From: a virus
Virus record (IMG/VR): IMGVR_UViG_3300036772_000211
Span: 1 to 64,000 of that record
Length of the DNA stretch: 64,000 bases
Direction: 5' to 3' (one strand)
In this document: positions 8,199 through 42,848 of the stretch, piece after piece
Position numbering within the stretch: position 1 is the stretch's first letter
Layout: each line of letters starts with the position of its first letter
Notes under the pieces: model-generated
Seen by the model: the letters and a program-made list of their open reading frames with translations, nothing else
Told to the model about the DNA's origin: nothing
Databases searched by the model: none
Translations under genes and position numbers: made by a program

Positions 8199-8395
8199 AC
8201 TGGTCGGCCATCGTCTGGCTCACGTGGCTGGGTTCGTTTGTCGTGCTTGAGGGAGCAGCAATCAGCGGCAGAGTGCCCTGGACGACGCTGAGCGTTTATA
8301 CGTGGATGCTCGAATCGACTGACGGCGTGGTGCGGTGGGTGCTGCTCATTGGCCTGGCAGCGCTACTGACGCACCTCGTGGCGAAGTGGCCCTAG
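8195..8395 (+). CDS. Holin-like small membrane protein, 66 aa
   Basis: The GTG start overlaps the endolysin stop (GTGA). Two hydrophobic segments (residues ~5-25 and 43-62) with a TTLS-x-W turn and a C-terminal THLVAKWP. This is the pattern of a widespread phage membrane protein placed beside endolysins. It ends the rightward lysis cluster; the next gene is on the other strand and its stop overlaps here. Confidence 0.6.
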   Translation: MNWSAIVWLTWLGSFVVLEGAAISGRVPWTTLSVYTWMLESTDGVVRWVLLIGLAALLTHLVAKWP

Positions 8396-8658
8396 CCAGG
8401 CGCTTCGAGCAGGTCGCGCGGCTCGCATTCAAGCGCGTCTGCGAGCTTGCGGACGGTAGATGGTAGGGCCTCGCCGCCGTTCTCCAGGCGAGTAACAGTG
8501 AACCGCTGGACGCCAGCACGCTTGCCAAGCTCTTCCTGCGACAGCGCGGCCAGGTGGCGCGCTCGCTTTAGGCCGGGCAGTTTGACCAATCTGACGTCAA
8601 TCGTACCGTCAGCGTCCCCCGGAAGCACAGTCACGTCTATATCGCGAGGTCGAGTCAT
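8392..8658 (-). CDS. XRE-type helix-turn-helix repressor beside the secretion-like cassette, 88 aa
   Basis: Residues ~30-80 form a lambda-type HTH (LSQEELGKRAGVQRFTVTRLENGG), with a short N-terminal arm. The chosen ATG at 8658 lies 6 bp after a TACAAT box, so the mRNA is probably leaderless. The gene is divergent from the VirB6-like gene at 8705, with a 46-bp gap holding a CAATGCATTG palindrome. It probably represses itself and the secretion-like operon. It is distinct from the CI-type gene near 31 kb. Confidence 0.7.
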   Translation of the reverse strand: MTRPRDIDVTVLPGDADGTIDVRLVKLPGLKRARHLAALSQEELGKRAGVQRFTVTRLENGGEALPSTVRKLADALECEPRDLLEAPG

Positions 8659-8704
8659 CAATGCATTGTATGTCCGTGGTGCGTTTGCTGTATGCTGGCT
8701 GTGC
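8658..8704. promoter_or_regulatory. Divergent promoter region with CAATGCATTG palindrome
   Basis: On the minus strand TACAAT (8670-8665) is followed by 6 bp and the ATG of the HTH gene. On the plus strand TGTATGCT (8689-8696) is an extended -10-like box 8 bp before the ATG at 8705. The perfect 10-bp palindrome CAATGCATTG (8658-8667) covers the leftward start site and is a likely operator. The -35 boxes are poor on both strands. Confidence 0.45.
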
Positions 8705-9706
8705 ATGATGAAGTGGCTCGCCTGGCCGGTGGGGGTGGTGGCTGCGCTGGTCGTGGTGACGGCATACGCGCAGGGCAACCCCATCGTGACCGCGCCACCG
8801 AGCAGCAGCAGCACCTCGACGCACATAGACGTGACTGTCCAGGCACCCCCAGAAGATCCGAAAGCAATCGCGGAGGCAGCGACGCAGTCGTCAGACGCGG
8901 TGATCGTGAATGTGCTCGCGCCGATTCCGGTGGGCTTCGTCAAGGGAGCTATCGGCAGCTTCCCGAACGTGTGGACGCAGACGCCGCCGAACCTTACTTA
9001 CGCCAACGGCGATCTGTCGCGGCTGGCGGGGGTAGTGCGGGATGGATCGCTGGCGCTGAGCGGCCTGGCGGTCTTCGCGCTCGGTATGAAGCTGGCGTTC
9101 ACGCGCACGGCGCCGACGGGGCGACTGCTCTTCGGCGTGGTGATGTGTCTGGGCAACCTTGTCTGGTGGAAGGTCGGCATTGACCTGAACAACGCGATCA
9201 ACCAGCAGATCAGCGCGCCGACGTTAGCCAGCCTGCTCAACCCCGGCATGACGCTCCCGAAGGTCGCGGATGGGACCATCCCCACGCCAGACATCGTCGC
9301 CAGCGCTGTGCTGGCCGCGGTCTTCGCGGTTGTCGGATTCCTGACGATGTTCAGTCTGCTTGCGCGGCTGGCGCTGATCGACATCCTGATCGTCGTCGGA
9401 CCGCTCGCGCTGATCTGTTTCGCATCAGAAGAGTCGGCCAGCTGGGGCACGATGTACGCGCGCACGGCAGTGGGGCTGACGTTCAGCCAGGTGCTGATCA
9501 CGGTCGCGTTCCTCGTGGCGAAAGTACTGGGCGTCCTGGGCACCTCCGGCGTGCTCGGGGCGATCGTGGGCATCGCGGTGCTGCTGACCATTCGCGGCCT
9601 GCCGAGCCTGATGGCATCCGGTCGTATGACGGCTGGGCCAAGCAACAGCGCGGCGTTCGGCGCCATCCTGGCGTTCGGTCGCCGCGCACTGGGGCTACTG
9701 ATCTGA
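8705..9706 (+). CDS. VirB6/TrbL-like polytopic membrane protein, 333 aa
   Basis: Signal-peptide-like N terminus (residues 1-24, ending AYA-QG), an extracytoplasmic stretch to ~95, then five or six transmembrane segments (about 108-126, 134-152, 195-238 as a double segment, 258-282, 286-306). VirB6/TrbL proteins form the inner-membrane channel of type IV secretion systems and have this build. ATG 8705 is chosen (8708 also possible). Its stop overlaps the next start (ATG at 9706). First gene of a seven-to-nine-gene cassette ending at 14624. Assignment rests on topology and neighbours. Confidence 0.55.
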   Translation: MMKWLAWPVGVVAALVVVTAYAQGNPIVTAPPSSSSTSTHIDVTVQAPPEDPKAIAEAATQSSDAVIVNVLAPIPVGFVKGAIGSFPNVWTQTPPNLTYANGDLSRLAGVVRDGSLALSGLAVFALGMKLAFTRTAPTGRLLFGVVMCLGNLVWWKVGIDLNNAINQQISAPTLASLLNPGMTLPKVADGTIPTPDIVASAVLAAVFAVVGFLTMFSLLARLALIDILIVVGPLALICFASEESASWGTMYARTAVGLTFSQVLITVAFLVAKVLGVLGTSGVLGAIVGIAVLLTIRGLPSLMASGRMTAGPSNSAAFGAILAFGRRALGLLI

Positions 9707-10314
9707 TGGGCTGGATTGCAGGCGCCGCGGGCGCGTTCTTTGGGATCTTCCTGATGTTCTGGGTCGGCTTCACCACCCAGCCGTGGTCGCCGTGGTGGAT
9801 CTCCGGCGGCAGCCAGGACCAGACGGTAGCCGGCGGCGGCGACATCAGCCTGCCAAGCTTCAGCGTCCCATCCGGTGGCGCTCTGCCGCCTATCTCGGAC
9901 GCGCCCGCTCCACCTGTCACAGCTGGTCATGTCAGCGACGTGCAGCGCTTCCAGCTGATCGAGGCAGCTGGAGCTTCGCCACAGGTCGCGATCGTCATGA
10001 CGGCGCTGAGCATCGCCGAGGATGGCTCGGGCGACCCGTCCATCGTCGGTCCCCCCAACCGTGACCATTCGGTCGACAACGGACTCTGGCAGGTCAACAG
10101 CGGGCACATCGGGCAGTGCGGCATCACCAGCCAGCAGTGGCTCTTCGACCCGATGAACAACGCGCGGGCTGCCATGTGCATCCTGGGGCCTGGGCTGAAC
10201 TACTGCGCCTGGTCGACGTTCGAGGCTAGCTGCGGTGCGGGTCATACGGGCGCGTACCGCGCGTTCATCGCGGGCGCGACGTTCATCGCGCAGGGGCAAA
10301 CATGGCAGCACTGA
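9706..10314 (+). CDS. Membrane-anchored lytic transglycosylase/lysozyme-like protein (VirB1-like), 202 aa
   Basis: N-terminal membrane anchor (residues ~4-22), a Gly/Pro-rich linker, then a lysozyme-like domain from ~85. The sequence ALSIAEDGSGDPSIVG supplies the expected catalytic Glu, and NGLWQVNSGHIG (about 125-137) is the goose-type/SLT signature. Three or more Cys may form disulfides outside the cell. In conjugation systems such an enzyme locally opens the wall for the channel. It is separate from the endolysin at 6930, supporting a role in channel assembly rather than lysis. Confidence 0.65.
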   Translation: MGWIAGAAGAFFGIFLMFWVGFTTQPWSPWWISGGSQDQTVAGGGDISLPSFSVPSGGALPPISDAPAPPVTAGHVSDVQRFQLIEAAGASPQVAIVMTALSIAEDGSGDPSIVGPPNRDHSVDNGLWQVNSGHIGQCGITSQQWLFDPMNNARAAMCILGPGLNYCAWSTFEASCGAGHTGAYRAFIAGATFIAQGQTWQH

Positions 10315-10571
10315 TCGCGCTTCTGATGGTGGCTCAGCAGCTGCTGAGCGTTCCTGGGTTCCTCACCGAGATCGTGCCAGGCGACCTCGATACGACAGTG
10401 CTGCAGGTCGACCAGACCAGCTACGAGATCGCGTTCGGACCAGGGTGCGAGGACTTCCAGCCCGGAATGGACGTGCTGGTGGAGGCAGGAAGCGGCGGCG
10501 TGGCCACGCTTTACGACGACAGCGGAAGCGGGCAGTGCAACGTGCTGATCGGAGCACCGGTCGGCGAATGA
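10302..10571 (+). CDS. Small exported protein of secretion-like cassette, 89 aa
   Basis: Starts at ATG 10302, overlapping the previous gene by 13 bp. Hydrophobic signal-like N terminus (residues 1-18) followed by a beta-rich acidic domain with two Cys (FGPGCEDF and GQCNV) that could pair outside the cell. No family recognised; context suggests a surface component of the channel. Confidence 0.5.
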   Translation: MAALIALLMVAQQLLSVPGFLTEIVPGDLDTTVLQVDQTSYEIAFGPGCEDFQPGMDVLVEAGSGGVATLYDDSGSGQCNVLIGAPVGE

Positions 10572-10672
10572 ACTGGAGGGTGCTCAGGGGTTGGGTGGTG
10601 GTGGTGGTCATCGTATCCATTGACGTGCTGGGGTGCGCATTCATCGCACAGCACATCATTTCGGGAGGTTAG
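10568..10672 (+). CDS. Single-span membrane peptide, 34 aa
   Basis: ATG overlaps the previous stop (ATGA). One transmembrane segment (GWVVVVVIVSIDVLGCAFIA). The following gene has a GGAGG site inside the end of this one. Too short for family recognition; supported by coupling and hydrophobicity. Confidence 0.45.
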   Translation: MNWRVLRGWVVVVVIVSIDVLGCAFIAQHIISGG

Positions 10673-10677
10673 CGTTC

Positions 10678-10887
10678 ATGTTCGGTCCTATCGTCAACAT
10701 CCTGAATCAGATCCTGACGTCGGCTCAGCCAATCATCGCGCCACTGATCGGCCTGGCGCTGCTGATGTACGGCGCCATCCTGGCGGCTGGCAACCACGCC
10801 AAGGCGCGCGAGGGCATCATCTGCGCCATCATCGGCGGTGCCATCATGCTCGGCTCACAGCAGATCGCTGCGGCGATCCATCCGTAG
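10678..10887 (+). CDS. VirB2/TrbC-like pilin candidate, 69 aa
   Basis: ATG 10678 sits 5-6 bp after GGGAGG. Two hydrophobic helices (residues ~18-35 and 44-64) are joined by a short basic loop (NHAKAREG), and the second carries IIGGAIMLG. This two-helix hairpin with a small polar loop is typical of VirB2/TrbC pilins. The gene lies just before VirB3-like and VirB4-like genes, the classic order. It is shorter than most pilins and lacks an obvious signal peptide. Confidence 0.5.
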   Translation: MFGPIVNILNQILTSAQPIIAPLIGLALLMYGAILAAGNHAKAREGIICAIIGGAIMLGSQQIAAAIHP

Positions 10888-10888
10888 T

Positions 10889-11479
10889 GTGCGAGACGAT
10901 GAGCAGCCAGCCGTCTACATCGTTCCGACCGAACTCGGCCGCTCGGATGCATTCAACGACCTGGCTTTCCTGGCAGTATCGTTTCTGGTCATCTGGTGGC
11001 TGTTCCAGCGTGGGCTGCCATTGTGGACAGGCGCCGTGGTGCTGCCCTTCGTGGCGATTGAGACGCTCACTTCTGAAGCTGCCGAGTCTGTCGCGTGGGT
11101 CGGCGATTTTGCGCAGGTACTGCGGATGGTCTTCGGCCACAGGCGGGCGCACGAATGGGCTTTAGCTTTCGGCCATCACGTGCAAAGCGTGACGTGGCGC
11201 CGGTGGAACCATCGTGCCAGGGCACGCTGGAGATCACTCCTACGTCGAACGCTCCGATGGGTTCGGCGGCAGAACGCGAGGACGCGGCGGATGCTTTCGC
11301 GCGCGTGCTCATGGGCCTCAGCTACCCGCTCCAGATTGTCAGCCAGGCTCGCGAGATCCAGAACCCGCCGGAGTGGCGCAAGCCACCCCGTCTCCGTCGA
11401 CGCTGGCTGGCTGTCTTACGCGGCAAAGATGCGGCGGAACGGGACTGGCGACTCCGAACACTCGAAGAGTCGCTCATAG
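10889..11479 (+). CDS. VirB3-like membrane protein candidate with long overlapping C-terminal frame
   Basis: GTG start one base after the pilin stop. Residues ~10-75 match the VirB3 layout: a short polar start (YIVPTELGRSDAFN), a hydrophobic segment (AFLAVSFLVIWWLF), then a second one. From ~95 on, the frame overlaps the VirB4-like gene by 325 bp and becomes Arg/Ser-rich, as shadow frames do. Either the tail is really translated or the functional product is the first third. VirB3 normally sits immediately before VirB4, as here. Confidence 0.4.
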   Translation: MRDDEQPAVYIVPTELGRSDAFNDLAFLAVSFLVIWWLFQRGLPLWTGAVVLPFVAIETLTSEAAESVAWVGDFAQVLRMVFGHRRAHEWALAFGHHVQSVTWRRWNHRARARWRSLLRRTLRWVRRQNARTRRMLSRACSWASATRSRLSARLARSRTRRSGASHPVSVDAGWLSYAAKMRRNGTGDSEHSKSRS

Positions 11480-12930
11480 GAGTAGGGCTGCATGCCAGAG
11501 TGGCTGATCCAGGCGACGTCAGTGGACATGCGAGGCGTGTTCATTCTTCTTTTGCTTTCGTGGACGGTGACCCTAACCCTTATCACGGTACGCTGGTGCT
11601 CCGACGATGGCCGCGAGAAGTCTCAGTCGGATGGCTCGGCAACGCTACCGCGGGGGAACTCCCCATCGACTGGGCGATGCATGTCCGCCCAGAGGACGCG
11701 AAGGCGGTAGCGCGCTACCTGAAGCGCCAGCAGTCCTGGCAGAGCGACCAGTACAGCCTCAAGCCTGACGCGCACAACGCGCTCGGGCGCCGCGACGCCC
11801 AGGAGACACAGCGCAAGCTGATCGCGGGCACTGATCGTCCGGTGAAGGTTGCTGTCGCGTTCACGGTGGCAGCCCCGTCCGAAGCAGAGTTGAAGGTGCG
11901 GATGGAAACAGCGCGGCACCAGATCGGCCTCACGCTGGGTGACGCTCGCGCGGCACGCTGGGAGATGGCCCGTGGCTACCAGGCGACGTCACCCGAAGGG
12001 GTCTGCGACCTGCTGGGCGCGTGGCGACGGCTGGACTGCACGTCGGTAGCTTCGGCGTGGCCATTCATGCCGGCCACGGTGTGGCACGAGCACGGCGCAC
12101 CGCTGGGCACCACCCACAAGGGTGCGATGGAAGTGCGGCTCGATCCATTCGATGAGTCGCTGGAGAGCTTCGGTGGTCTGATCCTGGCCAAGGTCGGCGC
12201 GGGCAAGAGCTACCTGCTCAAGCTGCTGACACTGCGGTTGCCAGATGTCGAGATGCTCATTGTCGAACAGCGCAACCCACCTGAATACCGCGGGATGCGA
12301 GCGACGACGATCAACCTGGCCGACCACGAGTACCACGAGCGAGCCGCGAAGCTGCGCGAGTTCGTAGAGAACATCTGGGAGACAGCCAAGCGCGACCCGC
12401 GCCCGCGACTGCTGGTGCTGGACGAGTTATGGAGCTTGCTGCTGGATGGCAACATGGCGCGCCTCGTAGAAGAGATCGCGCGCATCGGCAGGCACCACTA
12501 CCTGAGCATGTGGATTGCGACGCAGCAGGTACAGGAAATGCTGGGCAGCCAGGAGCGCCCGTGTCGTGAGGGCCGCGCGGTGCTCGACAATGCCGCCATC
12601 CGCATCTTCCTGAAGCAGCACGACCGCGACCTGGCGAGTATCGCCGATGCGGTTGGCCTGTCGAAGACCGCGCGGCGGTACGTTCGTTCGGCAGCCCGCG
12701 GGCAAGCGCTCCTGAGCGTGAATGACTTACTCGTCCCGGTTGACATTCAAGCAACAATGCGGGAGCATCAATTAATCTCAACCGACCCCCGTGAACGCCA
12801 TGCTGCTGCTACGAATCCCCTGGCTGATCCTGAAGGTGACCTTCCTGATTCTCTGGAAGGTGCTGGTGGTCCTTGGGTTCCTCGTGGTCGCACTGGTGAT
12901 CCTGTTGGACTCGGGGCGTCCGCAGGTTGA
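11155..12930 (+). CDS. VirB4/TraC-like secretion ATPase, 591 aa
   Basis: ATG 11155 is chosen. The N-terminal half has the VirB4 order (DAFARVLMGLSYPLQIV, then a long alpha/beta region). Walker A is AKVGAGKS near 344-351; Walker B is RLLVLDELWSLL near 417-428; the conserved RxGRHxxLSxWxATQQ block follows. VirB4 ATPases energise channel and pilus assembly in every type IV secretion system. It is shorter than the usual ~800 residues, mainly in the N-terminal half. The last ~45 residues are unusual and overlap a small membrane ORF in another frame. The stop overlaps the next start (TTGA). Confidence 0.85.
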   Translation: MGFSFRPSRAKRDVAPVEPSCQGTLEITPTSNAPMGSAAEREDAADAFARVLMGLSYPLQIVSQAREIQNPPEWRKPPRLRRRWLAVLRGKDAAERDWRLRTLEESLIGVGLHARVADPGDVSGHARRVHSSFAFVDGDPNPYHGTLVLRRWPREVSVGWLGNATAGELPIDWAMHVRPEDAKAVARYLKRQQSWQSDQYSLKPDAHNALGRRDAQETQRKLIAGTDRPVKVAVAFTVAAPSEAELKVRMETARHQIGLTLGDARAARWEMARGYQATSPEGVCDLLGAWRRLDCTSVASAWPFMPATVWHEHGAPLGTTHKGAMEVRLDPFDESLESFGGLILAKVGAGKSYLLKLLTLRLPDVEMLIVEQRNPPEYRGMRATTINLADHEYHERAAKLREFVENIWETAKRDPRPRLLVLDELWSLLLDGNMARLVEEIARIGRHHYLSMWIATQQVQEMLGSQERPCREGRAVLDNAAIRIFLKQHDRDLASIADAVGLSKTARRYVRSAARGQALLSVNDLLVPVDIQATMREHQLISTDPRERHAAATNPLADPEGDLPDSLEGAGGPWVPRGRTGDPVGLGASAG

Positions 12931-12940
12931 CCTACGTTGA
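12800..12940 (+). CDS. Overprinted single-span hydrophobic ORF, 46 aa
   Basis: An ATG-initiated frame lies across the end of the VirB4-like gene and the start of the VirD4-like gene. It encodes an almost continuous hydrophobic helix (WLILKVTFLILWKVLVVLGF) with a short polar tail. In the same bases the VirB4-like frame encodes a low-information Pro/Gly-rich tail, so selection may act on the hydrophobic frame. It could be a small membrane subunit, or chance. Confidence 0.35.
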   Translation: MLLLRIPWLILKVTFLILWKVLVVLGFLVVALVILLDSGRPQVDLR

Positions 12941-14624
12941 GCCGACACGCGCTCTGCTAGCTGGCGCGTGGGCTGAGCCTGCGACTCGACTCCCACTGGT
13001 TCTCCTGGCCATAGGAGTCTTCTTGTTGCTCTTCTGGCGACCTGGCCAGCAAGGCGCCCAGCAGCGCTCGAAGCTGCAGACAGAAGAGCGAGACGTCAGG
13101 CGTCCGACGAACACCGTGTGGTGGAAGCGCTGGTGGTGGAAGCTGCGCCCGCCTGTGGACACGATGGCTGTCGACGGTCTGGTGATCGAGCGCACCGGGC
13201 GCCGCTCGCACTGCCTGTGGCTGGGACCGACCGGCGCAGGCAAGAGCCAGAGCGTAGCCACGGTACGGGTGAATCACCAGCGGCCCATGCTCATCGTCAC
13301 GCCAGACCTGAGCGACCCCTTCATTCCGCTCGCGGACTTCCACTGGACAGCTGGCGGCAAGCGATCGGTGGACTTCCTGATCGGCACGCCCGAGCAGGTA
13401 GCCGAGCGGCTGACTGAGGTCTTCCGCAGCGGTGGCAATGGCGTGTGGAAGATGACCGCCAGGCGCGCGGTCACGGCCATCATCTACGTGCTCGATTCGA
13501 TGCGCGAGCCGCGGACGCTGCAGGCGATCGGCGAGATGCTGGCCGACGAGGTGAAGGATGACCGCGAGCTACGCACGGCGTGTGCTGGCTGGGTGGAGCG
13601 GTTCCTGTCGACGGCGCAGCAGTTCGGGGAGAGCATCGGCGCCGGTGGCGTGGACGTCGCCGAGCTTCTGCTGCAAGGCAAGACGGTGCTGCTGGACAAC
13701 GATGCCTTCGCTCACCCCGGCCTGGTGGGCGACGTGGTCGCGTTCGGGCTGGCTGAGGCCAAGCGCTGTGCTGACCGCGTGCCTGGCGGCTTCCGCCTGA
13801 TTTTCGAGGAGGCTGGCCAGCTTGGCGATCGCATCGACCTGGCCGATCCCTTCTTCCGCGCGGGTCGACGGCGGCGCATCGCTGTAGATGCCCTCACACA
13901 GGCAGAAAGCGACCTCAATGACGCGATTAGCCAGAATGCGGCCACAAGGGTGTATTTCAGCCAGGAGCTTCAGAACCTCCAGAAAGCGGCCGCAAATCGC
14001 CTGTCTATGGACTGGCACGATCTGGACCCCGCGGTGATGCAGGACTTCACAGCGTGGATCACCAGTGGCAAGATCCGCCGCCTTGTTCACTTCCCGAAGC
14101 CCAGGAATGCACGTCCACCTGTGACGGTGGGCATCTCCTACGAAGCTACGGATGGACGTTCACAGGTGGACGTGCGTCTGGTGGTGACCGAACAGAAGCG
14201 CTGGAAGGGCACAGGCGAAGCGGTTGACGTCGAATGGAACGGACCAAGAATGCTGCCGCCTCCGCAGGTACGGTTTCAGAAGCTCGTGGACGGGGCCTAT
14301 CGGGATGGGGCGTGCTTACGGTGGAAGGCTCATCTGCGGCATGACAAGGATGGCTATGGCGAGGTGTGGATCGACGGGGAAGGTCGGTACATGAAGGTGC
14401 ATCGTCTGGCCTACGAGCTTGCGTATGGAGCGATCCCGCGGAACCCTGACGGAACGACCATGACGGTTGACCATCTGAGCGGGGTGTGCCAGCACAAGGA
14501 TTGCTTCGAGCTAACGCACCTCGAACTGGTGACACGTGCAAAGAACAGCAGTAGACGGCAGGCCGCTGCGAAGGCTCGGCCGAAGGCTGGGGGGTCTGGG
14601 GGGAGACACGCCGGGATTGGCTGA
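12927..14624 (+). CDS. VirD4/TraG-like coupling ATPase fused to C-terminal HNH endonuclease, 565 aa
   Basis: TTG start coupled to the previous stop. A membrane segment (residues ~20-38) is followed by an ATPase: Walker A GPTGAGKS near 100-107, Walker B-like LIFEEAGQL near 290-298, and a late ATRVYFSQ block. This build matches coupling proteins that bring DNA or protein to the channel. From ~450 the protein switches to an HNH domain: MKVHRLAYELAYG, then TVDHL-x-GVCQHKDCFELTHLELVT, with the HNH His/Asn-type and Cys positions recognisable. The frame is continuous; a basic tail follows. An HNH fusion on a coupling ATPase is unusual. Confidence 0.75.
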   Translation: MTYVEPTRALLAGAWAEPATRLPLVLLAIGVFLLLFWRPGQQGAQQRSKLQTEERDVRRPTNTVWWKRWWWKLRPPVDTMAVDGLVIERTGRRSHCLWLGPTGAGKSQSVATVRVNHQRPMLIVTPDLSDPFIPLADFHWTAGGKRSVDFLIGTPEQVAERLTEVFRSGGNGVWKMTARRAVTAIIYVLDSMREPRTLQAIGEMLADEVKDDRELRTACAGWVERFLSTAQQFGESIGAGGVDVAELLLQGKTVLLDNDAFAHPGLVGDVVAFGLAEAKRCADRVPGGFRLIFEEAGQLGDRIDLADPFFRAGRRRRIAVDALTQAESDLNDAISQNAATRVYFSQELQNLQKAAANRLSMDWHDLDPAVMQDFTAWITSGKIRRLVHFPKPRNARPPVTVGISYEATDGRSQVDVRLVVTEQKRWKGTGEAVDVEWNGPRMLPPPQVRFQKLVDGAYRDGACLRWKAHLRHDKDGYGEVWIDGEGRYMKVHRLAYELAYGAIPRNPDGTTMTVDHLSGVCQHKDCFELTHLELVTRAKNSSRRQAAAKARPKAGGSGGRHAGIG

Positions 14625-14640: not shown

Positions 14641-17600
14641 CTAGTTGTCGTACGCCTCGGCCCAGTCGTAGTCGACGGTGCAGGTTCCTGCGCCAGGCTG
14701 GCTGGGGTTCATGGCCGGTCCCAGCCGACCGCCTGTCACTTGCCAGGGAGTGCCGGTGGTGGTGTCGTTCAGGGTGGTATCGAGCACGCCGGCGACGTAG
14801 ACGCGGTAAACGCTCTTCGCGCCGGAATTGTCCTGCAGCAAGTCGATCTGATACCACGTGCCGACCGCGAAGCTCTGGAAGGTGAGTGACGCCTGCAGGA
14901 ACGTGCCGTCTGCGGCAGACACGCCGATCGTCCAGGCGCCGTTGAAGTCGTAGATCTCAGTACCGTGGCCGCTACCGTCGACCAGCTGGATGATCTGACA
15001 GGCACCGCCGGTGACGTTCCACGCCGACAGGCGGAACACCGTTGAGAACCTGAAGATCTTACTGATGGGTGCCAGACCCGGGGTGTCGATTGCGGCTTGC
15101 GCCCCGCCCAGCGGCGGCACAGACATCTCCGCATAGACGTTGTCTGCGCTGGGGGTGGTGCCGGTCAGGATCGTTTGCGTGCTGCCGGTGTCGATCGTGA
15201 AATGGTTGCCCCACAAGGGGAACGTGACAGCCTCGCCAGCGAAGCCGTCTCCGAACATCGGGTGAGCGACGGTGATGACGAGTGTGGTGCTCACCCCCTG
15301 GAGCTTCGCGGTGATGGTCGCAGCACCGATCGCCAGACAGCTGTAGTTGCCAAGCTGGTCGACGGTGACCTTGGTTGCATCCGAGGTCGACCAGACCGCG
15401 TAGGCATTCAGCCCGAGACGGATGGTGTCGTCGGAGAACAGACCCTGGATCTGCAGCTGTCCCGTTTTGCCGGGGTACGGCCAGGAAACCGGAGCGATGG
15501 TCATGGACACCACCTCGCCAACCAGATCCTGTGGCACGAACTTGCTCATGTCCGTCGGCAACACGCCTGCCGCAGCTGCCGTGTGGCAGATGTACTGCTT
15601 CCCGAAGAAGTCCACCGAATCGCCAGGCGCGTACGTGTTCGTCAGACTGTAGACACCTCGCCAGTTGACGGTGTACGGGCCGGGGCTGATGCCGCCGAGG
15701 GTGGTGGCGTTTGGGTTGAAGGCGACGATCTGTTCCTTCAGTGCCGTTGGATCGCCGCCGGTCGCGGTCACGTTGATGGCCAGATCGCCGAGCGTGTTGG
15801 TGTCGACCGCGGTGGCGTGGAAGATGTACCAGCCGCCGCCGACCTCGCTGACGGTGCCCGCGGGCGCGGCGAAGCTGCCGCCGGCCTTGCTGATCTGCAG
15901 GGTAGGGCTGGCACCCGTCAGCGCACTGATGTGGTCGCTCGAAGACACCATCGCGAACTCAATGCTGGCGGCGACGGATTGCTGCCACTGTCCCATAAGC
16001 TGGATTGCCTTTCGTGGTCGAACAGCGCTGCCGGTGACGGACAGTGTGGCGCTTGCCTTGCCCTGGCCTGTAGCGTTGCCCGAGAGGGCTGGATTGACCA
16101 CGCCGCCCGTAGCCTGGAGGTTGAAGCTGAGCCGCTCGTTGTAGGTGGTGACGTTGATGAACTGGATCTGGGTGTAGTTCGCAGGCGGGTTGGCCTGCAT
16201 GTCGATGGGCTTGATGCCACGCAGCGGCGCGAGGTGGCTGGTGACGTAAGCGTTCTGGTCACTGACGCCAGCTGACACCTCGGCGATCTGCGTCGTCTGG
16301 CCTGAGTTATCGACTTGCTGGCGCGGGTTGAGGATGGCGTACTGGGTGGCGCCGCCGATGACGTAGGGCGGGTTCGGACCCGGGAACGCCTGGCTACCGA
16401 AGCTCGCGCCCAGGAGCAGCTGGTTATTGCCCACCTTGATGCTCACGTTCGGGCACGACTCGCCGAGCCAGTAGTTCGAGATCGTTGACGGGCCACTGAA
16501 GCTGGAGAAGTCGACGTTCACGGCGCCGCCGACGATGCGTCCACCGTCCAGGCTGAATGTGCCATTGCCACCCCCGGCGATCAGGTTGCTGGTGCGACTG
16601 CTGTTCTCGGCGTAGATGTTGGCGCAGGCGATCGTGCCGCCCGAGTAGCAGCGGTAGAACGGGCCGTTGCCATTGCCCGTGGTGCCGAAGATCACGTGGA
16701 CCGTGGACCCGTTTTCGCTGCTGATGCCGTACACGCCGGTGGTGCCGGGCCAGCCGTCCTGCTCATTGAGTGAGACGCTCGAATTGATGACGTCGACCCT
16801 GATCCCGCCCAGGTTGTTGGCCAGGATGCCGCCGACCTGGGCTGCCTGCGAGTTGGCGAAGCCGTCGATGTGGATGACGCCCCCGCCGCCGTTCGGTCCG
16901 CTGGTGCCGAAGCAGTCGGCGATGCTGGCGCCCTGGACCTGCATGTTGCGGAAGATCACCTGTGACGGCAGGTTCAGCATGAACACCGGCCCCGTGCCGC
17001 TGCCGCTCCAGACCAGATTCGTCGCGTACTGTGAGTCGCCCTCGAAGAAGAGCGGGAAGTTCGCGGGAACCTGAATGGTCTGACTGACACCGATCTGGCC
17101 GGCGCCGATGTGGATGACGTCGAATGGTTGGGCGCTGTTGATTGCTGACTGGATCGAGCCGCCACTGGACTGGTTATCCCAGATGGTGCGTGTGACGACC
17201 GGCGGCTCAGCTGGGCGCGCGGGGAAGCCTGGATCGCTCCAGGCGATGCTGAAGGTGTCACTGATGGAGTGCGTCCGGGTGAAGGCGCTCGCGAAGTAAG
17301 GCGAACCGTCGGCGTACGTGTTGTTGATACCAACCTGCTCGCCGCTGGAGTTATCTCCGCTGTACGGGCACTCGGCGATAATTGCCACGGCGCCGCCCGT
17401 GCCATGTGCGCCGACAAGGTTATCGACCATGATGATCGGACCGGCGTTGCTGAGTTGGATGATCTCCGCGGCTTTGCCGCCGATGTTGCAGCCCTGGACG
17501 GTGAAGCTGGCGATGAAGTTACCGATCGCCTGCGCCTCGACGTGACGCCAGGCGCCCGGCGCACTGTAATTCCAGCGGCTGGACATGTTGGCGCCCAGGT

Positions 17601-18447
17601 TGCCGAAGAAGATGTCGTGCTCGCTGCATTGGAACGCCGAGCGGGCCACGACGAAGTCGCCCGAGAAGCCGGCCTGGTAGGTGGTGTTGCAGACGCCGTG
17701 ATTGGGGCCGATGAACTGGCAGTCCCAGATCCAGTTATCCAGACTGTTGAAGTTGTAGGTCATGATGCCGACCACGTCGGGGTTGGTGTTCCCCGTGATC
17801 GGGTTCTTGCTGCCGTAGGGGTTCTGCGCGTAGTTGAAATAGCAGCGCATGATCGACGTCTCGGACGCGCCGAAGCCGTAGACGCCGAGCATCAGGCCCG
17901 CGGTTTCGGACTGGGGACCGCTCTGATTAGAGACGCCGAGCAGGTTGACGAAGCCGAGATCTTCGTAGCGGTTGCCGGTCGGAAAGTACTGATTGTCAGG
18001 TGTCGGCGCGCCGTCGATCGAGTGGTACGCATCCATGACCCCAACGTTGGCGATGCCGGCGCCGTCGAAGGTCAGCCGCGCCAGCCGCAACTGGGTGACC
18101 CCATTGTGGACGAGCATGATCGCGTCATTGGTCGCGCCGCTACTGTTGGGCGGCGGGCCAACCCACTGGATGACCGTGTCGTCTCTGGAGTGGCCGACGA
18201 TCATCGGGCCGATCAGCCCTTGCCCCACGGGTCGATACGCCGCGTCACCATAGCCGGTGCCCATACCCAGCGTGGCGTTCTGGTAGTAGCGGCCCGGGTT
18301 CACGTAGTACGCGCTGGGGAAGCCGGGTCGGGAGATGTTGGAGCACATCGCCTGCAGCGCCGCGGTGTCGGTCGCGCCGCTGGTGTCACCGCTGGGGCGG
18401 ACCTGGCCCCAGCTGGGAAACAGGTGCCCGTGGAACTCTTCCAGCAT
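14641..18447 (-). CDS. Large multidomain tail spike (beta-helix, Ig-like, lectin-like), 1268 aa
   Basis: Residues ~20-380 and ~400-720 are two beta-helix regions (repeated short strands, Asn/Gly turns). A beta-sandwich covers ~770-910, a short Trp-rich carbohydrate-binding-like module (WRGVYSLTNTYAPGDSVDFF) ~927-960, a bacterial Ig-like (Big_2) domain ~978-1062, and a concanavalin/LamG-like domain ~1070-1268. It probably binds or cuts surface glycans of the host. It is on the strand opposite other virion genes and convergent with the secretion-like cassette (16-bp gap). The ATG lies inside a perfect inverted repeat. Confidence 0.75.
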   Translation of the reverse strand: MLEEFHGHLFPSWGQVRPSGDTSGATDTAALQAMCSNISRPGFPSAYYVNPGRYYQNATLGMGTGYGDAAYRPVGQGLIGPMIVGHSRDDTVIQWVGPPPNSSGATNDAIMLVHNGVTQLRLARLTFDGAGIANVGVMDAYHSIDGAPTPDNQYFPTGNRYEDLGFVNLLGVSNQSGPQSETAGLMLGVYGFGASETSIMRCYFNYAQNPYGSKNPITGNTNPDVVGIMTYNFNSLDNWIWDCQFIGPNHGVCNTTYQAGFSGDFVVARSAFQCSEHDIFFGNLGANMSSRWNYSAPGAWRHVEAQAIGNFIASFTVQGCNIGGKAAEIIQLSNAGPIIMVDNLVGAHGTGGAVAIIAECPYSGDNSSGEQVGINNTYADGSPYFASAFTRTHSISDTFSIAWSDPGFPARPAEPPVVTRTIWDNQSSGGSIQSAINSAQPFDVIHIGAGQIGVSQTIQVPANFPLFFEGDSQYATNLVWSGSGTGPVFMLNLPSQVIFRNMQVQGASIADCFGTSGPNGGGGVIHIDGFANSQAAQVGGILANNLGGIRVDVINSSVSLNEQDGWPGTTGVYGISSENGSTVHVIFGTTGNGNGPFYRCYSGGTIACANIYAENSSRTSNLIAGGGNGTFSLDGGRIVGGAVNVDFSSFSGPSTISNYWLGESCPNVSIKVGNNQLLLGASFGSQAFPGPNPPYVIGGATQYAILNPRQQVDNSGQTTQIAEVSAGVSDQNAYVTSHLAPLRGIKPIDMQANPPANYTQIQFINVTTYNERLSFNLQATGGVVNPALSGNATGQGKASATLSVTGSAVRPRKAIQLMGQWQQSVAASIEFAMVSSSDHISALTGASPTLQISKAGGSFAAPAGTVSEVGGGWYIFHATAVDTNTLGDLAINVTATGGDPTALKEQIVAFNPNATTLGGISPGPYTVNWRGVYSLTNTYAPGDSVDFFGKQYICHTAAAAGVLPTDMSKFVPQDLVGEVVSMTIAPVSWPYPGKTGQLQIQGLFSDDTIRLGLNAYAVWSTSDATKVTVDQLGNYSCLAIGAATITAKLQGVSTTLVITVAHPMFGDGFAGEAVTFPLWGNHFTIDTGSTQTILTGTTPSADNVYAEMSVPPLGGAQAAIDTPGLAPISKIFRFSTVFRLSAWNVTGGACQIIQLVDGSGHGTEIYDFNGAWTIGVSAADGTFLQASLTFQSFAVGTWYQIDLLQDNSGAKSVYRVYVAGVLDTTLNDTTTGTPWQVTGGRLGPAMNPSQPGAGTCTVDYDWAEAYDN

Positions 18448-25185: not shown

Positions 25186-25487
25186 GCGATCTCCTGAGCG
25201 TGCAGCCGACCGTCTTCAGTGATACGGCAGGCGTACTTGCCGAGCTTCGGCTCCCATTCGATCCAGCCCTTACGCTCGAAGCTGCGCAGGGTGGACGCAT
25301 CGCCGCTGCCACTGGCCCAGAACACGAACGACTCGTGTCCGATGCTGAAGTATTGGCCCCGGCCGTCGAGTGACGGCAGCCACGCTGCGCCCTCGAACGC
25401 AGCGCAGCGCTGCTCGATCAGCAGCAGGAATTGATCGGCGCGCGTGAGCGCCCGCCCGTCAGCGTCCCGCGGTACGTTGCCGTTCAT
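25182..25487 (-). CDS. Possible winged-helix protein, 101 aa
   Basis: ATG 25487 overlaps the upstream stop (ATGA). The C-terminal ~45 residues (TLRSFERKGWIEWEPKLGKYACRITEDGRLHA) read as a helix plus wing of winged-helix proteins, the TEDGR end being typical. Possibly an early transcriptional regulator; partners unknown. Confidence 0.5.
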   Translation of the reverse strand: MNGNVPRDADGRALTRADQFLLLIEQRCAAFEGAAWLPSLDGRGQYFSIGHESFVFWASGSGDASTLRSFERKGWIEWEPKLGKYACRITEDGRLHAQEIA

Positions 25488-25948
25488 CGCGTGTACTCCG
25501 CGACATTGCACTTGCCCTGGCACTCGTCGCCATTCAGGCAGCCGTCGTGATCATTGGCGCCGCAGTGCGGGCACTCGACGGGAATCTCAGACTCCATTAG
25601 TTGCTCCTCTCGTTTCGCCGCCCACCACTCGCGTTTCCGCTGGGCGATCTTTTCTCGGCGCTCTGCCGACTGTGGCCCCAGGACCAGGCCGCGGGGTCCA
25701 CGTAGCCGCCCCTTCTGGGCGGCGTCTCTGGCGTTGATTAGGCGCGTGCCCAGGAACAGGTGGTCAGGCTCGAAGCACGGCGGGTTGTCGCACGTATGGC
25801 AGATCTCCATGCCCGCGGGGATCTGACCATGGATCGTGGCCCATACGAACCGGTGGACGTACTGGAGCTTGCCGCCGCGACCCCCAATGCGGATCTGGCC
25901 ATAGCCGTTCTTCGAACGCGCTCGAAGCCACTCGCGACAAGGCTTCAC
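25484..25948 (-). CDS. HNH endonuclease fused to a C-terminal Cys cluster, 154 aa
   Basis: GTG start overlaps the upstream stop (GTGA). Residues ~25-75 carry an HNH_3-like core: YVHRFVWATIHGQI, then EICHTCDNPPCFEPDHLFLGT. After a basic helix, the last ~38 residues (VECPHCGANDHDGC...CQGKC) hold a separate Cys-rich module starting at an internal Met. The HNH part may be a homing-type insertion fused onto a pre-existing small zinc gene. Confidence 0.7.
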   Translation of the reverse strand: MKPCREWLRARSKNGYGQIRIGGRGGKLQYVHRFVWATIHGQIPAGMEICHTCDNPPCFEPDHLFLGTRLINARDAAQKGRLRGPRGLVLGPQSAERREKIAQRKREWWAAKREEQLMESEIPVECPHCGANDHDGCLNGDECQGKCNVAEYTR

Positions 25949-29408: not shown

Positions 29409-30656
29409 TTACTTTGTCAGGCGCCGGCTCCCACGCGGGCTGGCAAAGCGCGTGGCTGGGGCTGTCTGCTGTTCCACGGGAGGCACCCCGGCCATGTCGT
29501 CACCAGCCCACGTAGGGCCCGCGTAACCAGTCAACGGAGCCCGCCGGCGAGCGGCTATGGGGCTCGATTGCAGTTGGGTTACGACAGGGTGTGGGCCGAG
29601 TACCGATTCGGCCAGGGATGCACGCCCGCGGCGCGCGTCGATCGTCGTCTGCGCCAGGTGGACGTAATCCGCCAGGACGCCGGTGCTGATGTGGCCCACG
29701 ATGCGCCGCAGGCCCATCTCGTCGCCTGGATGCACCGTCAGATACCACGTACAGAAGGTATGCCTGAAACGGTGGGGATAGGCGTCCTCGACGTCTGAGG
29801 CGGCGGCGATGCGCTTGATGACGTCGTTGCCGCCCTCGGCGGTCAGCTGGTGGCCGTCGCGCGCCAGGAAGACATAGCCGAGCGGGTTGCTCCAGCGCTG
29901 CTCCTGAATCGACAGGTGACGCGCGAGCGCGCGCACGACGCGCCCGCCGTCGCGCCTTGGACGACCGTTGTCGTCGTAGGACTGGATAGAGATGGTTCGC
30001 TCCCGGCGACCCTTGCCCATAACCGTAACCGCGCGTTCCGTCAGGTTGAGCTTCTCAAGTTTGAGGCTGCACGCTTCTCCGATCCGTACTCCAGTGTCCA
30101 GCAGCAGTAGGAACAGCGCCTCGTCGCGCGCCGGATTGCGAGTCCGGAAGCAGGCCCCCCACATGGCGGCTAGCTCTTGGTCGCTGAACGGTGTACGGGT
30201 GAACTTTGTTATGCGCGGTCGCTTGAGCTTGCGCAGCGGGTTGACCTCAACATACTCGTTCTCTTCGAGCAGGTTGCCCAGCCGCTTGAGCACGTCCGCG
30301 GCGGCGCGCACGGCAACCTCGCCGCCACGCGTGCGCCGCGGGTGCTCCAGGGTGCGATACCAGACGAGGAACTCCCGGACCCGATCTGGCCGCAGTTCAT
30401 TGAGTGCCGGCGTGATGCCGCGGCCTCTCAAGAACTCAAGGAAGCGCACCTCGTAGTCGAGGTACTGCTTGTGCGTATGCTCTGATGCGCCGTTGGCGCC
30501 GAGCACCAGCTGGTGAAACGAAACAGCGTCGCGGAGATCCTGCACAGACCCCCTCCACGCGGGCACAGATTCGGGTGCCTGTCGCCGACTCCCCGTGGTC
30601 CGGGGACTGCTGCCCTGCCCGCGAGAAGTCGTGTTACGGCGCATCAAGCGTGCCAC
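29409..30656 (-). CDS. int: Tyrosine recombinase (phage integrase), 415 aa
   Basis: All catalytic residues are visible in the 415-residue reading: Arg191 (GVRIGEA), Lys215 (MGKGRRER), His295 and Arg298 (HRFRHT), His322 (VGHIS) and Tyr331 (LADYVHL). The N-terminal SAM-like core-binding domain spans ~40-140; a Pro/Arg-rich C-terminal tail of ~70 residues is extra. GTG 30656 or ATG 30644 may be the start. Upstream, GTGACA-17 bp-TCAGAT lies 6 bp before an 8-codon ORF (30686-30660), possibly a leader. It catalyses integration and, with an excision factor, excision. Confidence 0.95.
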   Translation of the reverse strand: MARLMRRNTTSRGQGSSPRTTGSRRQAPESVPAWRGSVQDLRDAVSFHQLVLGANGASEHTHKQYLDYEVRFLEFLRGRGITPALNELRPDRVREFLVWYRTLEHPRRTRGGEVAVRAAADVLKRLGNLLEENEYVEVNPLRKLKRPRITKFTRTPFSDQELAAMWGACFRTRNPARDEALFLLLLDTGVRIGEACSLKLEKLNLTERAVTVMGKGRRERTISIQSYDDNGRPRRDGGRVVRALARHLSIQEQRWSNPLGYVFLARDGHQLTAEGGNDVIKRIAAASDVEDAYPHRFRHTFCTWYLTVHPGDEMGLRRIVGHISTGVLADYVHLAQTTIDARRGRASLAESVLGPHPVVTQLQSSPIAARRRAPLTGYAGPTWAGDDMAGVPPVEQQTAPATRFASPRGSRRLTK

Positions 30657-34012: not shown

Positions 34013-35932
34013 GTGACGTTCACAGCCCCCGCCGAACTCGCCACGCGACCCCAGTGGGTCGCGTGGCGGATCGAGGATCGCATCGACGCGAAGGGGGAAG
34101 TCAAACCTACCAAGGTGCCGTACAACGCGCGCACAGGCAAGCGGGCAGCTAGCACTGACCCGTCAACCTGGGCGGCGTTCGAGGTGGCTGTGGCGTTCGC
34201 AGAGCACGAGCGCATGGGTGGCATCGGCTTCGTGGTCACCAACGATGACCCGTACGTCGGCGTCGACCTTGATCACTGCCGCGATGATGACACGGGTGCG
34301 ATCGAAGAGTGGGCTGCCGTGATTGCGATGCAACTCGACAGCTACACAGAGATCAGCCCGTCGGGCACTGGACTGCGGATCTTCGTCCGCGGCGAGCTAC
34401 CACCGTTCGGCAAGCGCAAAGGCCACGTCGAGATGTACCAGCACGCGCGCTTCCTGACGGTGACCGGCAACCATCTCGAAGGCAGCCCCGAAGCCATCGA
34501 AGATCGGTGCAGTGAACTGCTCGAACTGCACCACAGCGTCTTCGGAGCGCCGCCGGAGGCGCGCCAGAACGGTCATGTGGCGGCGCGCCTCCCTCTCGCG
34601 CTCGCTGACGCCGACGTGCTCAAGAAGGCTCGCGGCGCGACCAATGGCGAGAAGTTCTGGGCACTGTGGAACGGTGACTGGTCAGGCAGCTACGACTCGC
34701 AGTCCGAAGCTGACCTGGCACTGGTGAGTTACCTGGCGTTCTATACGGGTCCAGACGAAGCGCGCCTGGATCAGCTGTTCCGCGCGAGCGGCCTGGTGCG
34801 TGACAAGTGGGACCGACCTGACTACCGCGGAAGCACGATCAGCAAAGCGCTGGACGGTCGCACGGAGTTCTATGGTAACGGCAGCCTCGCGCTAGCGCCC
34901 AGGCTCAGCGTCAACGGTCTGGTGCATGCCAGCGCTGGTGAGGTTGACCCAGAGACGGGCGAGGTGGTCAAGCCGCGCCTGATTATCTCGCTAGCTGAGA
35001 TGGTGAAGGGCGCACCCGAGTCAGACCGCCAGCTTGTCGAAGGCATGCTGTGGGCCGGCCTGCTGCACTGGCTGTACTCAGGACCAGGCTCAGGCAAGAC
35101 CATGCTCGCGCTCGCGATGGGCATGCACATCGCGGCTGGCAAGCCGTTCCTGGGCCGTGCCGTGGAACAGGGCACGGTGCTGCTGGTCGAAGAGGATTCG
35201 CCGCGCACCGTTATGCGCGACTACGTTGAGCTTCTGGCGGCAATCTATGACATCGACCTCGACGGGCTGCCGTTCTATATGAACGACATTCGCGGGCTGA
35301 AGATGTCAGACGAAGACGGCTGTAACGCGGTCAAAGAGCTTGTGGCCGCATGCCCGCAGCAACCGCTGCTGCTGATCCTCGACGCCTGCGAGCGCCTGGT
35401 GCCGAGCGCTGACTTCAACAGCCGAGAGCTAGCACCGCTCAAAGATTTCCGCGTGTGGGCCGAAGAGCAAGCCGTCGCAATGCTGATGATCGACCACACG
35501 CGAAAGCCAGGCAATGGCGACAAGATAGACGACATCGACCTGCTCTATGGTGGCCGCTCAAAGTCCGCGCTCGCGGACATCATGATGTGCATAAAGGGCA
35601 GCATCAAAGCTGAGGCTAAGCTGACCTTCCCCAAGCGTCGCGGCGAGGATATCCCAGCTATCGATCTGAACTTCGATGCTGCTGGCGGATTCATCTTCAA
35701 GCAGGAAGCTGCGCCGCTCAGCGACAACGAACGGCTGATAATCAAAGCCATCAACAATGCACCTGGGACGCGGCTAACCAAAGCCGACATCATGAAGGAT
35801 TCTGGCCTACCAGAAGGCATCGCGAACCGCGCGCTGCAAGCCCTTGTGAAGGCTGGTCGTATCGACCGTCAGGGAGCCTCAGTGGCGACCACGTACGGCC
35901 TGCGGACTGGCACAGGAGGGTTCTTCAGTTGA
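34013..35932 (+). CDS. Primase-polymerase/helicase replication protein, 639 aa
   Basis: GTG start. Residues ~1-180 resemble NrS-1-type primase-polymerases: GIGFVVTNDDPYVGVDLDHC (D-x-D), ISPSGTGLRIFV, and HARFLTVTGNHLEG. A helical bridge (~200-290) follows. Residues ~330-560 are a RepA-like AAA ATPase: Walker A GPGSGKTM near 357, Walker B LLLILDACE near 453, and a late DHTRKPG and GGRSKSALAD. The C terminus (~575-630) is a winged helix. It should open DNA and make primers at the adjacent iteron array. Confidence 0.85.
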   Translation: MTFTAPAELATRPQWVAWRIEDRIDAKGEVKPTKVPYNARTGKRAASTDPSTWAAFEVAVAFAEHERMGGIGFVVTNDDPYVGVDLDHCRDDDTGAIEEWAAVIAMQLDSYTEISPSGTGLRIFVRGELPPFGKRKGHVEMYQHARFLTVTGNHLEGSPEAIEDRCSELLELHHSVFGAPPEARQNGHVAARLPLALADADVLKKARGATNGEKFWALWNGDWSGSYDSQSEADLALVSYLAFYTGPDEARLDQLFRASGLVRDKWDRPDYRGSTISKALDGRTEFYGNGSLALAPRLSVNGLVHASAGEVDPETGEVVKPRLIISLAEMVKGAPESDRQLVEGMLWAGLLHWLYSGPGSGKTMLALAMGMHIAAGKPFLGRAVEQGTVLLVEEDSPRTVMRDYVELLAAIYDIDLDGLPFYMNDIRGLKMSDEDGCNAVKELVAACPQQPLLLILDACERLVPSADFNSRELAPLKDFRVWAEEQAVAMLMIDHTRKPGNGDKIDDIDLLYGGRSKSALADIMMCIKGSIKAEAKLTFPKRRGEDIPAIDLNFDAAGGFIFKQEAAPLSDNERLIIKAINNAPGTRLTKADIMKDSGLPEGIANRALQALVKAGRIDRQGASVATTYGLRTGTGGFFS

Positions 35933-40520: not shown

Positions 40521-40991
40521 GTGCCACGTGAACGCAAGCCTGCTCGCCACTACGATCCAGAGACGATCGCGACCGCGATCAGGCGCTACATGGCCGGCGA
40601 TTCCGCGGTGTCGATCGCTCGCGATCTGGGCGTCACACGCTTCGTCGTCCACGGGTGGATCAACCGTCACGACCCGGCGCACGCGCCGGTCCCGCGGCAG
40701 ATGTACCAGCGCAATGCCGAAGAGCTAGCGCAGCTGGTCTATGACACGGTCACCGAAACCCTCAACGCAATTAGAGCTAGAGCCATCGCGACTCGCTCGG
40801 TGGAGTGGATCACGGCACAATCGGCCAACGACCTTGCCCAGCTGGATGCTGCTCAGTGGGACAGAGTCATCCGCATGGTTCAGGCCCTCCGACCTCGCCC
40901 GGCAAGTGACGAAGAAGCCGGTGATGCCGCGGACGCCTCAGACGACGAACCTGCGGTTCATCGAAACGGAACCGTGGACACCACCGACTGA
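40521..40991 (+). CDS. terS: Terminase small subunit, 156 aa
   Basis: GTG start. HTH near residues 18-50 (AIRRYMAGDSAVSIARDLGVTRFVVHGWINR), a helical oligomerisation part (~60-120), and an acidic tail. It recognises phage DNA for packaging. It overlaps the large subunit frame by 68 bp. Call rests on HTH, size and position. Confidence 0.7.
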   Translation: MPRERKPARHYDPETIATAIRRYMAGDSAVSIARDLGVTRFVVHGWINRHDPAHAPVPRQMYQRNAEELAQLVYDTVTETLNAIRARAIATRSVEWITAQSANDLAQLDAAQWDRVIRMVQALRPRPASDEEAGDAADASDDEPAVHRNGTVDTTD

Positions 40992-42597: not shown

Positions 42598-42848
42598 GTG
42601 CGATCGAGTTCGAGGTGTTGTACTGCGACGGGCAGCGCGAGGTGGAAATCCAGGGCGACTGGCCTCAGCAGACGTCGATCAGTATCGGACTGCTAGAGGT
42701 ATCTGATCCAGGCATCCTGCGTCGCGAAGACGACAAGATCACCATCGACGTCGACAACGCTGCGGCCACGTATCGCATCATCGGCGAAGACCAGTCGCTG
42801 CCATGCGTGCAGTGCGAACTGATCCAGGGCGCGGTGCATGGCAGCTGA
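42594..42848 (+). CDS. Small beta-rich protein between terminase and portal, 84 aa
   Basis: GTG start overlaps the terminase stop (GTGA) and its end overlaps the portal by 11 bp. Strand-rich and acidic (EFEVLYCDGQREVEIQGDW; DDKITIDVDNAAATYRI). Unknown; may help head assembly. Confidence 0.5.
   Translation: MSAIEFEVLYCDGQREVEIQGDWPQQTSISIGLLEVSDPGILRREDDKITIDVDNAAATYRIIGEDQSLPCVQCELIQGAVHGS

Follow-up and report, generated by a model that had tools for sequence, protein, structure and literature searches.

A type IV secretion-like cassette with a short VirB4 and a coupling protein fused to a nuclease in a temperate tailed phage

Type IV secretion systems (T4SSs) are classed as machinery of plasmids, integrative and conjugative elements (ICEs) and bacteria. 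Here we describe a cassette of T4SS-like genes in a temperate tailed phage (Caudoviricetes) from soil, IMG/VR record IMGVR_UViG_3300036772_000211 (64,960 bp). The window, by which we mean the whole stretch of DNA analysed, comprises bases 1–64,000 of this record. The first 127 bases of the record are identical to its last 127; the genome is therefore complete and circularly assembled, at 64,833 bp. The cassette (8392–14624) consists of a divergent XRE-type regulator and a tightly packed plus-strand operon. Judged from its sequence, it is very probably a translocation module that derives from a T4SS and is carried by the phage. Its genes point to a T4SS variant that pairs a short VirB4 ATPase with a nuclease-bearing coupling protein, a combination that is not unique because Bacillus phage G has a related set.

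An initial annotation had placed a conjugation-like gene series at 8705–14624, and all of these genes are present there on the plus strand, with overlaps of 1 bp (VirB6/VirB1) and 4 bp (VirB4/VirD4). The limits of the cassette needed correction: it starts at 8392, with the regulator, and its last gene is a VirD4–HNH fusion. Three points that had been overlooked, namely this fusion, the regulator and the lack of a recognisable relaxase, matter most for the mechanism. The cassette contains the following features.

8392–8658, minus strand: XRE-type helix-turn-helix (HTH) regulator, 88 amino acids (PF01381 HTH_3, 1.2e-9)
8659–8704, no strand: divergent intergenic gap of 46 bp, putative promoter/operator region (function inferred from sequence)
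8705–9706, plus strand: VirB6/TrbL-like polytopic membrane protein, 333 amino acids (profile-against-profile comparison with hhalign)
9706–10314, plus strand: VirB1-like lysozyme/transglycosylase, 202 amino acids (PF18896 SLT_3, 1.8e-12)
10302–10571, plus strand: small exported protein, 89 amino acids (N-terminal hydrophobic segment; no Pfam match)
10568–10672, plus strand: single-pass membrane mini-protein, 34 amino acids
10678–10887, plus strand: VirB2-like pilin, 69 amino acids (PF18895, 1.6e-4; PF04956 TrbC, 0.0018)
10889–11479, plus strand: VirB3/PrgI-like protein with a GTG start (position, topology and IPTEL motif)
11155–12930, plus strand: VirB4 ATPase, 591 amino acids, with no alpha-helical insert between its Walker motifs
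12927–14624, plus strand: VirD4/TrwB-like coupling ATPase with an HNH endonuclease, 565 amino acids, with an N-terminal transmembrane segment (VirD4 part, approximately 12927–14230; HNH part, approximately 14247–14576)

Occurrence in other phages

Searches of related phages recovered the cassette in a sister phage and in four further IMG/VR contigs. The sister (IMGVR_UViG_3300019887_000001; 54% identity in the large terminase subunit, TerL, and 63% in the capsid protein) carries its own, diverged version of the cassette in the corresponding slot, which follows the lysis genes and, as in the window, a divergent gene for an HTH protein. This copy encodes an exported protein, a polytopic VirB6-like protein, a protein with two transmembrane segments, a VirB3–VirB4 fusion and a VirD4–HNH fusion. 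The four contigs (G128, 61.3 kb; G129, 58.4 kb; G130, 26 kb; G131, 78 kb) came from an alignment-based scan, have VirB4 proteins at 49–57% identity and keep the same gene order wherever the contig covers the cassette. G128 is complete (127-bp repeat) and encodes an HK97-type portal and capsid (phrog_2662 and phrog_10), G129 has a portal matching phrog_2662, and G130 and G131 are phages by IMG/VR classification only. The structural genes of G128 and G129 have no similarity to those of the window, which argues that the module moves between phage types. Homologues of the HTH regulator adjoin the cassette in the sister (51% identity) and in two further contigs (48–51%), the reading frame in G129 being uncertain.

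A third relative, IMGVR_UViG_3300012200_000002, is complete (123-bp repeat), has a capsid protein 79% identical to that of the sister and gave no sign of either VirD4 or VirB4. The cassette is therefore accessory and dispensable for the phage. This relative also bears on the idea, prompted by the tail and lysis genes that adjoin the cassette in the window and the sister, that T4SS-like proteins are packaged in the virion and form a channel for genome delivery. Such a role is very unlikely, as the relative has homologous virion genes and no cassette, the cassette of G128 and G129 lies beside an integrase in genomes with unrelated structural genes, and the cassette has a regulator of its own.

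Two final viral scans found no further full cassettes, although these were pattern-based and diverged copies escape them. Single-protein patterns for VirB4 and capsid matched nothing in viral contigs, so that patterns derived from alignments were needed. One VirB4 relative listed as a virus, G132 (IMGVR_UViG_3300033181_000072), was set aside because it looks like a conjugative element: it has a relaxase (PF03432, 1.3e-29), a full T4SS-DNA_transf coupling protein nearby and the long form of VirB4. Assembly chimerism and contamination were rejected on the terminal repeat, on the sister and the other independent contigs that carry the module and on even composition. The GC fraction is 0.642 in the cassette versus 0.638 in the window, and the codon usage of the cassette correlates with that of the early genes at r 0.94 and with that of the structural genes at r 0.92 (early versus structural, 0.93).

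A VirB4 ATPase without its insert

The assignment of VirB4, already made in the initial annotation, is firm on profile evidence. The window protein matches NF045971, the NCBIfam model of CD1110-family VirB4 (1.3e-18, below the cut-off of the model), TraC (1.9e-13) and PF19044 (1e-4, also below cut-off), and a profile of five phage VirB4 proteins finds the Thermoanaerobacter VirB4 4ag5 in the PDB (1.1e-15). AlphaFold models of the two ATPases are poor (predicted local distance difference test scores of 46 and 52), so their Foldseek matches only back up the profiles. The VirB4 model matches VirB4 8rtb (3.7e-14), with TrwK/VirB4 ahead of other ATPases, and the best match of the VirD4 model is TrwB (2e-4). 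The presence of T4SS genes in T4SS order, together with models that match TrwK/VirB4 and TrwB first, favours a T4SS origin.

A misread packaging or FtsK/HerA-type ATPase would be an alternative, and one protein family labelled ‘terminase large subunit’, phrog_2666, does match VirB4 (1.7e-16; window 11095–12930). The label is probably an annotation error, given that the genome has a separate TerL (phrog_38, 1.2e-56) and that all other evidence indicates VirB4. The neighbours of the ATPases resemble TrbL, a pilin and VirB1, and the profile searches favoured VirB4 and T4SS coupling proteins over FtsK/HerA or packaging ATPases. We consider a non-T4SS identity extremely improbable and discarded it on the VirB4 profiles, the PDB VirB4, the first rank of TrwB and the separate TerL.

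Both Walker motifs of the window VirB4 are intact, and 72 residues separate the Walker A lysine from the Walker B aspartate. This spacing is 72–73 residues in the phage proteins (102 in the sister), versus 186–202 in the intact cellular VirB4 proteins compared and 199–264 in VirB4 proteins of plasmids or ICEs from Firmicutes and Chloroflexota. When 400 Chloroflexota genomes were searched with the phage profile, all nine strong match pairs measured were interrupted at this point by 136–157 extra residues. What the phage proteins lack at this point corresponds to the all-alpha domain that separates the Walker motifs. A cellular VirB4-like gene (G044:C162, 11885–13693) has its Walker A stretch deleted and is possibly a pseudogene or an assembly error.

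In the VirB4 tree, the proteins of the window and of G128–G131 form one clade (100/100). A single origin of all phage forms was neither rejected (p-AU 0.23; range, 0.17–0.42) nor shown, in a tree with long branches that does not place phage G and the sister firmly. Convergent loss of the insert is therefore possible.

A coupling protein fused to a nuclease

The VirD4-like protein of the window is shortened at its N terminus. It matches HNH_3 (1.4e-7), phrog_826 (5e-20) and AAA_10 at only 0.14, so that the call of VirD4 in the initial annotation would be weak from this protein alone. The homologue in the sister aligns with it over the ATPase and matches both TrwB_AAD_bind (PF10412, 4.3e-12, above the cut-off) and HNH_3 (5.7e-8), which upholds the call. 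Comparison of a phage VirD4 profile with a cellular one gave a weak match (24%). Pfam matches place an HNH domain on VirD4 in the window, the sister, G129 and G131 (the last at 6e-4, below the family cut-off), and the C terminus of the G128 protein has an HNH-like pattern by alignment only, with no Pfam match. The HNH part of the window protein is 54–59% identical to those of two other cassettes. This identity, together with fusion in four cassettes, suggests that the nuclease has been retained. Elsewhere in the window, a lone HNH_3 endonuclease (8e-14) is encoded at 25484–25948; the phage family has several, and these are a possible origin of the domain fused to VirD4.

Membrane, pilin and wall-opening genes

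Two further assignments of the initial annotation are firm by profile evidence. A profile of the phage VirB6 proteins matches one of TrbL_4 proteins from two Chloroflexota systems and phage G (hhalign, 98.2%; E, 3.3e-14), and the VirB1-like enzyme matches SLT_3. In the VirB1 position, the window, G129 and G131 have an SLT_3 enzyme, whereas G130 and, by sequence, G128 have one of the NlpC/P60 type. We read this difference as an exchange of non-homologous enzymes with the same predicted role. All four cassettes read in the stretch after the hydrolase (window, G128, G129 and G131) have an open reading frame (ORF) for a single-pass membrane protein of 29–34 amino acids there. In G129 and G131, the corresponding position showed no equivalent of the 89-amino-acid exported protein.

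The VirB2-like protein is likely to be a pilin. Its PF18895 and TrbC scores come from a longer form of the ORF and are both below cut-off, profile comparison gives 52% (hhalign; E, 1.5e-4), and the homologue in G128 matches TrbC at 6.5e-5. The VirB3 assignment is weak: the protein has the expected position and topology and shares an IPTEL motif with PrgI (hhalign E, 0.083), and it has homologues in G128 and G129 (41–43% identity). The C-terminal part of this ORF overlaps the start of virB4 out of frame by approximately 325 nucleotides (11155–11479), and the sister has a fused VirB3–VirB4; the arrangement may represent one long overlap or result from an indel or frameshift. A strongly hydrophobic ORF of 46 amino acids lies in an alternative frame within the 3′ end of virB4 (12801–12941); in the sister, a small membrane ORF separates virB4 from virD4.

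Relaxases

Searches for the relaxase families PF13814 and PF03432 found neither in the window record, the sister or G128–G131, with other relaxase families not scanned genome-wide, and nine of the larger unassigned ORFs of the window had no relaxase match when compared with all of Pfam. The same searches were positive elsewhere: PF13814 was detected next to VirB4 in each of the three nearest cellular systems (3.5e-23 to 3.9e-41), and PF03432 was found in G132. By the relaxase criterion, the phage module would be classed as a T4SS variant and not as a conjugation system.

A missing relaxase and a lost VirB4 insert could also be the marks of a decayed conjugative element, caught in phages as inert cargo. 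However, the ORFs are all open, the motifs are kept, VirB4 retains 49–57% identity across independent phages, gene order is conserved and the spacing of 72–73 residues recurs. Decay therefore does not account for the cassette, and we regard inert cargo as highly improbable.

Proposed function

As functions, the initial annotation had suggested movement of phage DNA between cells, export of an effector or a bridge between hosts. We tentatively propose, at somewhat less than even chances, that the cassette is a self-regulated module of monoderm-type (PrgI/TrbL/TrbC) ancestry that builds an envelope-spanning channel in the infected or lysogenic cell, with DNA as its substrate. Relief of repression by the divergent XRE protein would switch on the operon, after which the VirB1-like hydrolase would open the cell wall, and VirB2, VirB3, VirB6 and the membrane mini-protein could form a channel or pilus. 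VirB4, without its alpha-helical insert, would serve as the motor for assembly and power the channel or pilus. The membrane-anchored VirD4–HNH protein may replace both coupling protein and relaxase, binding DNA at the channel mouth, cutting or nicking it and feeding it outward, probably into a neighbouring cell.

Conservation of gene order in unrelated phages supports the proposal, as does the swapping of VirB1 enzymes, which is expected if the wall must be opened. DNA is the favoured substrate on two grounds: diverged copies have kept the HNH fusion, and phage G encodes a relaxase-family protein (gp146) and a free-standing HNH protein next to its T4SS genes. We also count in favour of the proposal that the nearest cellular systems carry PF13814 beside VirB4/VirD4, and that the XRE gene diverges from the operon.

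Several points weigh on the other side. DNA export by known T4SSs in conjugation begins with a relaxase, the very component that the searches above failed to find. Many HNH domains of phages belong to homing endonucleases, and the fused one could likewise be parasitic. A complete relative shows no cassette, and the pilin and VirB3 assignments are weak. VirB8-like proteins occur in most Gram-positive T4SSs, and no cassette protein matched one in profile searches, these proteins being highly divergent.

There are two serious rivals to a DNA-exporting channel. A T4SS without a relaxase might instead deliver a protein, perhaps the small exported one of 89 amino acids or some other product of the prophage, into the medium or to nearby cells, and act in competition between lysogens and non-lysogens. 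T4SSs with substrates other than DNA, known from other bacteria, have no dedicated relaxase, and no relaxase was found in the six phage records scanned. A recent review stresses effector T4SSs in Gram-positive bacteria as an open question (PMC12857230). Nevertheless, the module contains no conserved candidate effector, the 89-amino-acid protein having no equivalent in two relatives, and an HNH domain on the coupling ATPase suggests DNA; we consider protein export unlikely.

The second rival, which we judge less probable again, is interference: the shortened VirB4 and VirD4–HNH could join a T4SS of the host, or could stop or cleave incoming DNA at the membrane, providing superinfection exclusion or a barrier to conjugation. 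VirB4 systems are present in 71 of 110 genomes of the candidate host class, a VirB4 that lacks one domain and a VirD4 that is short at its N terminus are what dominant-negative parts might look like, and a nuclease would sit at the membrane. However, a poison subunit would not need all that is kept here, namely a wall hydrolase, a pilin, VirB6 and VirB3, and the Walker motifs of VirB4 are intact.

A wider proposal can be made, which we put forward as possible but doubtful: that some temperate tailed phages have a second means of spreading, free of virions, through a dedicated, remodelled T4SS in which a nuclease on the coupling ATPase replaces the relaxase, the type with a short VirB4 being an old lineage of Chloroflexota phages and Bacillus phage G. 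A recurrent phage T4SS would mean that a cell-to-cell channel has been taken over for virion-free movement of DNA, for action on neighbours or for the exclusion of rivals. Its recurrence suggests an additional means by which some phages may act on nearby cells. The module also indicates which T4SS parts can be dropped.

Phage genome and host

The reading of the window in the initial annotation as a complete phage with integrase, terminase, portal and coat genes stands for TerL, capsid and integrase and is strengthened by the 127-bp repeat; the portal is assigned by size and position only. The other main features are as follows.

29409–30656, minus strand: integrase
34013–35932: primase-polymerase with an NrS-1-type helix bundle domain (PF22763, 8e-21) and an AAA domain
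40741–42597: TerL (phrog_38)
42838–45018: portal, with no PHROG match and 52% identity to that of the sister
51188–57412: internal virion protein of 2,074 amino acids with a lytic domain
58712–59689: major capsid protein (phrog_1357, 1.8e-46)

Convergent to the cassette, on the minus strand, lies a gene for a 1,268-amino-acid protein (14641–18447), probably a tail spike, with a weak Big_2 match.

The host probably belongs to the Chloroflexota. A phage-like contig in a soil Chloroflexi metagenome-assembled genome bin encodes a TerL with 62% identity to the query protein, a link that could be a binning error, and close cellular VirB4 proteins belong to Chloroflexota. A portal alignment search of genome contigs gave no match.

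Comparison with known systems

We found no description of the module as a system, including the genes of phages G and SPO1, in the open-licence literature; a paper may exist outside it. The word phage is absent from the main text of a 2025 review that unifies T4SS nomenclature (PMC12857230).

The initial annotation knew of no standard phage with this set, which Bacillus phage G (JN638751), the best phage match of the window VirB4, contradicts. Its near-complete set spans gp146–gp157 (85059–93838), of which the record annotates only gp155, as ‘VirB-like’. As in the window, there are a pilin (gp150; PF18895, 3.7e-6), a TrbL_4 protein (gp153, 1.8e-11), a VirB4 with the same Walker A–B spacing of 72 residues (gp155), a VirD4-like protein (gp156) and an adjacent HNH protein (gp157). 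Unlike the window, phage G has a 497-kb genome and a Bacillus host, its HNH protein is unfused, its VirD4 is full-length and gp146 belongs to a relaxase family (PF13814, 4.1e-25).

SPO1-like phages have an operon, 29.1–27.3 (FJ230960, 91819–97876), with a relative of gp156 (VirD4-like gp27.4), a weak pilin-like 29.1 and, as in phage G, a PF13814 relaxase-family protein (gp27.3, 2.9e-12). In contrast to the window, neither VirB4 nor TrbL was recognised in this stretch, which encodes an actin-like partition protein (gp27.9; PF17989, 2e-27). Because these two classical Bacillus phages carry related genes, the question can be approached in cultivable phages. Streptococcus phage phi-SgaBSJ27/31_rum also has T4SS genes within its record; however, these include a Tn5252 gene and a TrsE VirB4 of the long form (199 residues), consistent with an ICE–phage composite.

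Among cellular systems, the closest VirB4 proteins (approximately 30% identity) are in conjugation-type T4SSs of Chloroflexota (G036:C59, G044:C1 and G018:C29). The first of these has a pilin (PF18895), TrbL_4, PrgI, VirB4 and VirD4 in nearly the same order as the phage cassette. In contrast to the phage versions, the cellular VirB4 proteins have approximately 115–130 more residues between the Walker motifs and a PF13814 relaxase beside them, the VirD4 N terminus is longer and no HNH domain was seen in the two VirD4 proteins examined. The T4SS of R388 provides the best structural matches of the two low-confidence ATPase models, TrwK/VirB4 and TrwB/VirD4, but is a diderm system with many more parts.

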